Part shown: positions 3,772 to 49,700 of the stretch, one piece after another
How positions within the stretch are numbered: the first letter of the stretch is position 1
Layout of the letters: the number at the start of each line of letters is the position of its first letter
Assembly (NCBI GenBank): GCA_018813295.1
Contig: JAHJBZ010000014.1
Span: 1 to 64,000 of the forward strand
Direction: 5' to 3'
DNA: 64,000 nucleotides
Source of the DNA: Patescibacteria group bacterium
GTDB lineage: Bacteria; Patescibacteriota; Gracilibacteria; UM-FILTER-43-11
Translations under genes and position numbers: made by a program
Notes under the pieces: generated by a model
What the model saw: only the letters and a program-made list of their open reading frames with translations
What the model was told of the DNA's origin: nothing
Database searches by the model: none

Positions 3772-3805
3772 TCCGAAGGCGCGAATGGCCATTCGCGCCT
3801 TCGGA
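3772..3805. repeat. Family A palindrome A1
   Basis: TCCGAAGGCGCGAATGGCCATTCGCGCCTTCGGA, 17 nt past the DsbD-like stop. Confidence 0.9.
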
Positions 3806-17713: not shown

Positions 17714-17753
17714 ATTCTAGAAGGCGCGAATGGCCATTCGCGCCTTCTAGAAT
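17714..17753. repeat. Family A palindrome A2
   Basis: ATTCTAGAAGGCGCGAATGGCCATTCGCGCCTTCTAGAAT (40-nt perfect palindrome). Confidence 0.9.
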
Positions 17754-22111: not shown

Positions 22112-22149
22112 CCCCCGAAGGCGCGAATGGCCATTCGCGCCTTCGGGGG
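22112..22149. repeat. Family A palindrome A3
   Basis: CCCCCGAAGGCGCGAATGGCCATTCGCGCCTTCGGGGG. Confidence 0.9.
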
Positions 22150-27884: not shown

Positions 27885-27977
27885 TGTGGATTCGCCCTAT
27901 CGGGCTGTGGATGCGCTTTGCTGTTGTCATAATGCGTCCACAGCAAAGCTCATCCACAGGCGTTAGCCGAATCCACA
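27885..27977 (+). repeat. Family C leader element C3
   Basis: TGTGGATTCGCCCTATCGGGCTGTGGATGCGC...CATCCACAGGCGTTAGCCGAATCCACA, 13 nt before cutA ATG. Confidence 0.9.
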
Positions 27978-39165: not shown

Positions 39166-39207
39166 AAAACCAGAAGGCGCGAATGGTCATTCGCGCCTTC
39201 TGGTTTT
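39166..39207. repeat. Family A palindrome A4
   Basis: AAAACCAGAAGGCGCGAATGGTCATTCGCGCCTTCTGGTTTT, terminator-like after the Smr gene. Confidence 0.9.
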
Positions 39208-40729: not shown

Positions 40730-40761
40730 CCGAAGGCGAGGATTATAATCCTCGCCTTCGG
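40730..40761. repeat. Family A palindrome A9
   Basis: CCGAAGGCGAGGATTATAATCCTCGCCTTCGG between aroB and rdgB. Confidence 0.85.
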
Positions 40762-41824: not shown

Positions 41825-41917
41825 TGTGGATTCGCCCTGTCGGGCTGTGGATGCGCTTCACTGTGGTCGTAATACGTTCACAGCGAAGCACATCCACAGG
41901 CGTTAGCCGAATCCACA
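41825..41917 (-). repeat. Family C leader element C4
   Basis: TGTGGATTCGCCCTGTCGGGCTGTGGATGCGC...GCGTTAGCCGAATCCACA, 19 nt before aroB ATG. Confidence 0.9.
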
Positions 41918-44883: not shown

Positions 44884-45504
44884 ATGAAATTAAAACATCG
44901 CGATTCTCAGAGCCGTATTTACGTTGAAGACGGTACGTATTTTGTTACAACAAACACATTTAATTGGTGTCCGTATTTTAAAGAACGGATATTTTGTGAT
45001 TTTTTTGTGGAGAATTTGAAGTTATGTAAAAAAATTAAGGGATTTTATTTATATGCGTGGTTTTTGGGGTATGATCATTTTCATTTGTTGGTGCGGCCGG
45101 GAGAAGGGTTTGGTTTGTCGAAAATAATGCAATTTTTAAAACGTCATATTTCACGAAATATTAATATAATTATGGGATATAAAACCGAATCGAACATCAC
45201 TCCCGAAGGCGCGATTGGCCAATCGCGCCTTCGGGGTACCGTCCCTCCGGAGGTGATTGAGCAATTCGATGAATATGTTTTAAATTTAAAAAACCAATTC
45301 CACCAAAAATACCCAAACCAAAAACCATACCCACGATTTGGGTGGCAAAAATCATACCACGACCATTATATCCGTAACGACAATGATTTCGACAACCATT
45401 GGTTGTACATTAAACGCAATCCGACAAAACATGGGCTGTCGAATAATTGGCCGTACATATTTTTAAATGACAAATATGAGGATTTAATTGATAACCCTCT
45501 ATAA
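44884..45504 (+). mobile_element. REP-associated-type (Y1/HUH, IS200-like) transposase, RAYT-like
   Basis: 'YFVTTNTFNWCPYFKE...YLYAWFLGYDHFHLLVRPGEGFGLSKIMQFLKRHISRNIN...FGWQKSYHDHYIRNDNDFDNHWLYIKRNPTKHGL': HxH motif and Y with downstream N-P. Confidence 0.88.
45202..45235. repeat. Family A palindrome (A5) embedded in the transposase ORF
   Basis: CCCGAAGGCGCGATTGGCCAATCGCGCCTTCGGG perfect palindrome; encodes 'PEGAIGQSRLRG' in frame. Confidence 0.9.
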
Positions 45505-47915: not shown

Positions 47916-47957
47916 AAAATCCGAAGGCGCGAATGGCCATTCGCGCCTTCGGATTTT
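47916..47957. repeat. Family A palindrome A6
   Basis: AAAATCCGAAGGCGCGAATGGCCATTCGCGCCTTCGGATTTT. Confidence 0.9.
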
Positions 47958-49646: not shown

Positions 49647-49700
49647 GTTTTTTCCTGTTGTAGGGACGCGAGATCTCGCGTCCCTACAACAGGAAAAAAC
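49647..49700. repeat. Family E palindrome E4, 54-nt perfect palindrome
   Basis: GTTTTTTCCTGTTGTAGGGACGCGAGATCTCGCGTCCCTACAACAGGAAAAAAC. Confidence 0.9.

Follow-up and report, generated by a model that had tools for sequence, protein, structure and literature searches.

A REP-associated tyrosine transposase that very probably reads a palindrome within its own gene

Results

A RAYT gene with a palindrome in frame

The stretch of DNA analyzed here, called the window, comprises 64,000 nucleotides of a contig from a Patescibacteria group bacterium, and on its forward strand, at 44884..45504, lies an ORF of 206 codons (ATG start, TAA stop) that encodes a RAYT (REP-associated tyrosine transposase, Y1/HUH) of 206 aa. 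The initial annotation, made from sequence alone, had proposed a RAYT-like Y1/HUH transposase, and family models bear this out: the ORF scores 94.1 bits against NCBIfam NF047646 (REP-associated tyrosine transposase; cut-off 80) and 30 bits against Pfam Y1_Tnp (cut-off 23), and only 13.4 bits against the IS200/IS605 model NF033573 (cut-off 55). The HUH motif H65-F66-H67 (45076..45084, forward strand) has both histidines near-invariant among 55 homologues, and the putative catalytic tyrosine Y175 (45406..45408, forward strand), within WLYIKRNP, is invariant in them and aligns with Y115 of E. coli TnpAREP. An AlphaFold2 model built from the 55 homologues has a mean pLDDT of 89.5, its weak parts being the first N-terminal residues and a loop at about 101-120, and its best PDB fold match is 4er8 (E 6.8e-8), the E. 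coli TnpAREP-REP complex, which was the sole enzyme-REP structure found in our PDB searches. Helix 78-97 (45115..45174, forward strand) is the putative recognition helix, equivalent to alpha3, with the face residues K80, Q83, F84, R87, H88, R91, N92 and I95. Further RAYTs lie on other contigs of the same genome. We rejected a viral origin of the window RAYT, no homologue being found among viral contigs.

Within the ORF, at 45202..45235 on the forward strand, is a perfect in-frame palindrome of 34 bp, CCCGAAGGCGCGATTGGCCAATCGCGCCTTCGGG, with 17 bp arms and no spacer; it occupies codons 107-118, has a 28-nt core at 45205-45232 and codes for part of the loop TPEGAIGQSRLRG. The initial annotation was right both about this palindrome and about its place in a linker, for the coded loop is modeled at a pLDDT of 49-65 between helices 78-97 and 122-142. 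The 30-bp core of the palindrome has five exact occurrences in the 1.53-Mb genome, four of them outside the RAYT gene, and the pattern GAAGGC-N16-GCCTTC occurs 38 times, as compared to none for a reversed-pattern control and a chance estimate of about 0.1. The palindrome is not a chance structure. The REP family is thus dispersed in the genome, as expected of a RAYT; the gene itself is not flanked by cognate REPs, the nearest matching palindromes lying 2.4 and 5.7 kb off and the cognate REP being internal.

The same site is occupied in homologues

Homologues were sought in 85,000 species genomes with peptide patterns that avoid the palindrome, namely FxWQxS.. and that of the F[CAS][DE] helix; of 184 matching loci the best 80 were taken, ranked by similarity to a query that included its loop peptide, which introduces a mild bias. 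These 80 loci come from Patescibacteria lineages, Cloacimonadota, Spirochaetota, Fidelibacterota, Ignavibacteriota, Bacteroidota, Margulisbacteria, Melainabacteria, Coatesbacteria and others; one genome-family search for additional homologues yielded almost none. A linker palindrome is present in 58 of the 64 intact ORFs from these best 80 of 184 loci (55 strong), the second-best palindrome within the same gene usually scoring 5-8. Cores with at least 13 of 14 pairs were found in 52/64 RAYTs and in 3/338 other ORFs, all 170 aa or longer, at the same loci. The homologous palindromes are 28 nt long with ends of the GAAGGC/GTAGGC/GCAGGC type, the foot tag being GAAG in the window gene and GTAG, GCAG or GTAA among homologues, and their variable center differs in almost every one. 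Within the same taxonomic family, where homologues are 37-70% identical, the codon position of the perfect palindrome is shared and its center is particular to each.

The 28-nt core lies in frame 0 in most homologues, in frame 2 in six and in frame 1 in one, and on the protein tree the presence of the palindrome changes 3-4 times and its frame 7 times. Most homologues have the loop peptide EGxxxxxRL(R/Q), those in other frames have unrelated peptides such as KARSRDLAF and RRRGCASPPS at the same place, and the close relatives L056 and L057 have half-sites that are 13/14 identical with wholly different peptides (EGAQSIARLR and PPKARKRLRAFGG). As the palindrome is found in three reading frames, it is the DNA and not the peptide that is conserved. 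Homologues without the repeat encode another peptide, the opposite of what the initial annotation had named as speaking against an insertion.

The site turns over, since some loops hold two palindromes or decayed ones (L014, L079, L113, L118), and the internal copy is dispensable, since five homologues (L112, L115, L116, L120, L123) have external REPs only. The trait is also lineage-specific, as an internal palindrome is absent from the classical RAYTs with short linkers that were sampled from the phylum (L176, L177, L178, L181, L182); the distant RAYTs L022, L024, L026, L027 and L179 have a REP-like palindrome within the ORF at different linkers. We note that some contigs end exactly at an internal RAYT palindrome (the start of G000:C17, and G009:C123/C124), so that draft assemblies undercount such copies. 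In two genera of one family, a complete-looking RAYT with Y1_Tnp, HxH and YIRxNP all present (L018, G054:C64; L021, G024:C40) lies in frame, apparently in the region of the editing domain, within an isoleucyl-tRNA synthetase; the two share the identical palindrome GTTAACCTACCACCTAGGTGGTAGGTTAAC, and related ones with 2 mismatches are dispersed in both genomes.

Internal palindromes match REPs outside the gene

At the 31 loci where a further palindrome lies no more than 6 kb away, internal and external palindromes agree at 10.6 of 14 letters, as compared to 7.8 for shuffled neighbors, and their half-sites match exactly in 11 cases where 0.5 would be expected (0/2000 shuffles, p<1/2000). Dispersed palindromes of the same genome also fit the internal centers better than palindromes from other genomes do (p=0.0002). 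A cognate palindrome lies within 150 bp of the gene in about 17/58 homologues, and 24-134 bp upstream of the start at about 14 loci; at least half of the tested internal cores are without a second exact copy in their own draft genome. Close relatives without a detectable homologue of the window RAYT mostly have zero GAAGGC palindromes or isolated chance-like matches, the exceptions being G013, which has two, and G014, which has 24 and whose RAYT match is only weak. A second, distant RAYT of the host genome (contig C8, L053) has GTAGAGACGCATTGCAATGCGTCTCTAC within its ORF and four other exact copies in the genome.

A helix face covaries with the palindrome center

Mutual information between half-site positions 10-14, beside the dyad, and all protein columns is highest along one face of helix 78-97, where the columns of R87, Q83, H88, F84, R91, K80, N92 and I95 reach summed z values of 43 to 11; columns outside the helix and linker have a mean summed z of 1.9 and a maximum of 11.5. 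H88 occurs with G14 (a central GC) in 18/18 cases and non-H88 without G14 in 40/40, E87 and C11 are together in 9/9 and both absent in 49/49, and T12 accompanies R87 in 35/35. Fuller helix faces go with fuller half-sites: F84 R87 H88 R91 N92 with a half-site end TGG, and with TCG when D92 replaces N92; FRNQN with TGC; N84 R87 (V/T)88 (L/F)91 Q92 with TAT; S84 (or F84) E87 N88 with AC(G/A) at positions 10-12; F83 S84 K87 Q88 H91 with CAA; and R83 S84 T87 N88 with GTC(A/G)C.

The pairing has predictive value. In leave-one-out prediction of the center, the nearest helix face gives 4.0/5 letters correctly, the rest of the protein 2.1 and random choice 1.9, and with relatives above 60% identity barred the values are 3.8 versus 1.8. 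For the external REPs of the five homologues without a recognizable internal palindrome, 4.3/5 letters were predicted, as compared to 1.8 at random. Most partial genes that had been kept out of the code agree with it (C1, C55, L068, L075, L109, L084, L127, L014); the held-out sisters L108 and L117 violate the H88/G14 rule, having N88 with G14. Pairing statistics of the palindromes within genes were left out of the covariation evidence because these copies had been picked as the best palindrome.

Shared ancestry was considered as the cause of the covariation and rejected: H88 and G14 each show 14-15 concordant changes on the tree, and on a tree made without the helix and linker columns each of the 6-7 supported independent pairs is concordant (p 0.016-0.031). 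Physical linkage between the helix and the adjacent palindrome is an unlikely cause as well, because external REPs obey the same code and there is little signal outside the helix and linker columns. In the E. coli TnpAREP complex, K82 of the DNA-binding helix alpha3 contacts a REP base, and the authors of that work suggested that group 3 REPs are contacted by alpha3 at their loops (PMC8266576). R87 of the window RAYT appears to align with this K82, in a register, IKK(80-82)/LKR(85-87), that was read from the sequences and not from a structural superposition. We regard the case as strong, on comparative grounds, that this enzyme family reads the palindrome center and that the gene nearly always holds the palindrome to match.

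Predicted targets of the window enzyme

The helix face of the window enzyme, KQFRHRNI, is identical in L085, which is paired with AATGG, and in L078 and L082, which are paired with ATTGG, so that the enzyme should act on its own palindrome at 45205 (..ATTGG|CCAAT..) and also on palindromes with the center AATGG|CCATT. Five of the latter are dispersed in the window, at 3775..3802, 17720..17747, 22117..22144, 39173..39200 (with a single mismatch at the dyad) and 47923..47950 (adjoining a likely pheT start), and all are predicted substrates. The palindromes at 40732 (GATTAT) and 51438 (CAATC) and those of the GTAGAGACG and GTAGGGACG types should not be targets. The earlier suggestion that this enzyme acts on the palindrome family is therefore very probably correct, given the external matches and the helix code, although by the helix comparison it would not extend to every palindrome in the window.

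The other families, beginning with GTAGGGACG and GTAGAGACG, are found at 49647-49700, 30154, 53072 and 53126 and include one perfect 54-bp palindrome; their enzymes are likely other RAYTs of the genome, that on contig C8 being the likely one for the CATTGCAATG center of the GTAGAGACG type. Two similar imperfect inverted repeats of 55 nt (CTGTGGATGCGCTT...CATCCACAG), at 27905-27959 and 41845-41899, are unrelated to the REP families. At many loci, for instance 17714-17753, 39166-39207 and 47916-47957, the 28-nt core is extended by perfectly complementary flanks of 0-22 nt whose sequence differs from copy to copy, and such copy-specific flanks also occur within genes (L111, L117). Such flanks are not explained by the insertion of a fixed element; template switching or copying of target arms might.

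Among the dispersed copies of genome G000 (L136-L159), about a dozen GAAGGC palindromes lie in frame in the linkers of host genes, in frames 0 and 1. The genes hit, named from reading their translations and not from a family search, are MiaB-like, glycosyltransferase, PabB-like, YjeF, Obg, TsaD, AroA-AroK, PriA, ComEC and PcrA. The AroA linker was hit independently in two genera (G000, G009), in different frames.

Discussion

REPs are known to flank RAYT genes and to coevolve with them (PMC2817692, PMC3686654), and known REPs at most overlap the ends of the RAYT gene (PMC2817692, PMC3733652). The window enzyme shares with the RAYT/TnpAREP proteins and REPtrons of E. coli (4er8), Stenotrophomonas and Marinomonas (group 3) the Y1/HUH fold, the HxH and tyrosine motifs, cognate tagged palindromes, enzyme-REP coevolution and the DNA-binding helix alpha3. 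It differs in that its cognate REP lies inside the ORF, between alpha3 and the tyrosine motif, and is a perfect 28-nt palindrome, mostly tagged GAAG, that covaries with alpha3 residues. REPs can also occur inside unrelated ORFs, in one case at about the same recB site in two species (PMC3733652). With such REP-decorated ORFs and with the Rickettsia palindromic elements (RPE) the window ORF has in common that a protein gene contains a palindromic repeat in frame, with several frames tolerated; there, however, the host genes are unrelated and the presence of the repeat is sporadic, whereas here the host is the gene of the reading enzyme, in about 90% of the family and across phyla. The TnpA enzymes of IS200/IS605 (IS608, ISDra2) have a related fold and likewise recognize hairpins in single-stranded DNA, but their subterminal hairpins lie at the IS ends that flank tnpA. 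To our knowledge no hairpin recognition site has been described inside an IS200/IS605 tnpA. A search of the open-access literature, with subscription papers (for example on RAYT groups) outside its scope, gave no report of a REP inside a RAYT ORF or of an alpha3 code.

From these comparisons the window RAYT very probably reads the palindrome within its own gene, and we think it probable, with good though not complete confidence, that this is a RAYT whose cognate REP is housed in its coding sequence, is read by alpha3 and is kept as a cis site and donor while the enzyme mobilizes matching copies. The palindrome lies in a predicted flexible loop, 10-30 codons past the putative recognition helix. 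In single-stranded DNA it may form a hairpin bound by alpha3, with Y175 cutting beside the foot, by analogy to E. coli TnpAREP; the hairpin tip would be recognized through residues 80/83/84/87/88/91/92/95 of helix 78-97 (alpha3), for which there is strong comparative evidence. Comparative evidence also suggests that the enzyme mobilizes matching palindromes into a small dispersed family, some members of which come to lie in frame in host-gene linkers. The in-gene copy may then persist as the enzyme's own cis site and donor, in keeping with a published model in which RAYTs favor REPs adjoining their own gene (PMC3686654). As one short ORF encodes the recognition helix and contains the target, the two would be inherited, transferred and changed together.

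The reason why the copy stays in the gene is the least certain part of this mechanism. Tolerated self-insertion, whereby an enzyme acting preferentially near its own gene keeps depositing its REP in the sole tolerant loop and each functionless copy decays and is replaced, seems to us a genuine possibility, if a less than probable one. It draws on the decayed and duplicated palindromes side by side in loops (L014, L079, L113, L118), the seven frame changes, the repeated hits on host linkers such as that of AroA and the same cis-preference model (PMC3686654); since host-gene linkers (AroA, PcrA, TsaD, Obg, ComEC) also hold in-frame palindromes, tolerance together with cis-preferential insertion could fill the RAYT gene without selection. 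Yet it would need a site-specific rain of in-frame insertions, and it must reckon with a palindrome that is nearly always present, whatever the phylum, that is intact and matched to the helix, and whose in-gene core is the sole exact genomic copy in about half of the tested cases. A cis/donor role fits this persistence and these sole copies, and self-insertion fits the turnover. Autoregulation, in which an mRNA hairpin or a protein-bound in-gene REP damps transposase expression, is in our estimation unlikely: the long perfect stems (14-28 bp) in mid-gene and the cognate palindromes upstream of the start at about 14 loci would suit it, but it is the tip of the hairpin that covaries, which is what the known DNA substrate would lead one to expect, and an mRNA hairpin alone would need no specific center.

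Selection on the peptide, with the palindrome incidental, is very improbable; the EGxxxxxRL(R/Q) loop of most homologues might suggest it, but other frames yield unrelated peptides at the same place, the loop is variable and modeled with low confidence, and REPs outside genes obey the same helix code. Least credible of all is a one-off repeat insertion into the window gene, as the word "interrupted" in the initial annotation implied. The dispersal of the same palindrome family in the host genome would agree with such an event, but it is refuted by the 58/64 homologues that have a palindrome at the corresponding site, the centers differing; what stands of that description is the palindrome, near-constant at this site, and not the single event.

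These findings address the question of how a RAYT locates its REPs and how enzyme and REP remain matched. Because each enzyme carries its own label, targets can be assigned to enzymes unambiguously across phyla, and the self-labeled enzymes yield a concrete, testable code in helix alpha3 that would let REP families be assigned to enzymes from sequence. We offer more guardedly, as a proposal with about equal prospects of proving right or wrong, that a widespread transposase clade may keep its own recognition site in frame beside the helix that reads it, selected as donor and cis site, and so form a portable, self-labeled specificity cassette; a code for the recognition of folded single-stranded DNA could then be read from its natural helix-palindrome pairs. 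With such a code, programmable hairpin-reading HUH enzymes could be considered. In the window RAYT, a mobile element very probably keeps its target within the coding sequence of the enzyme reading it.
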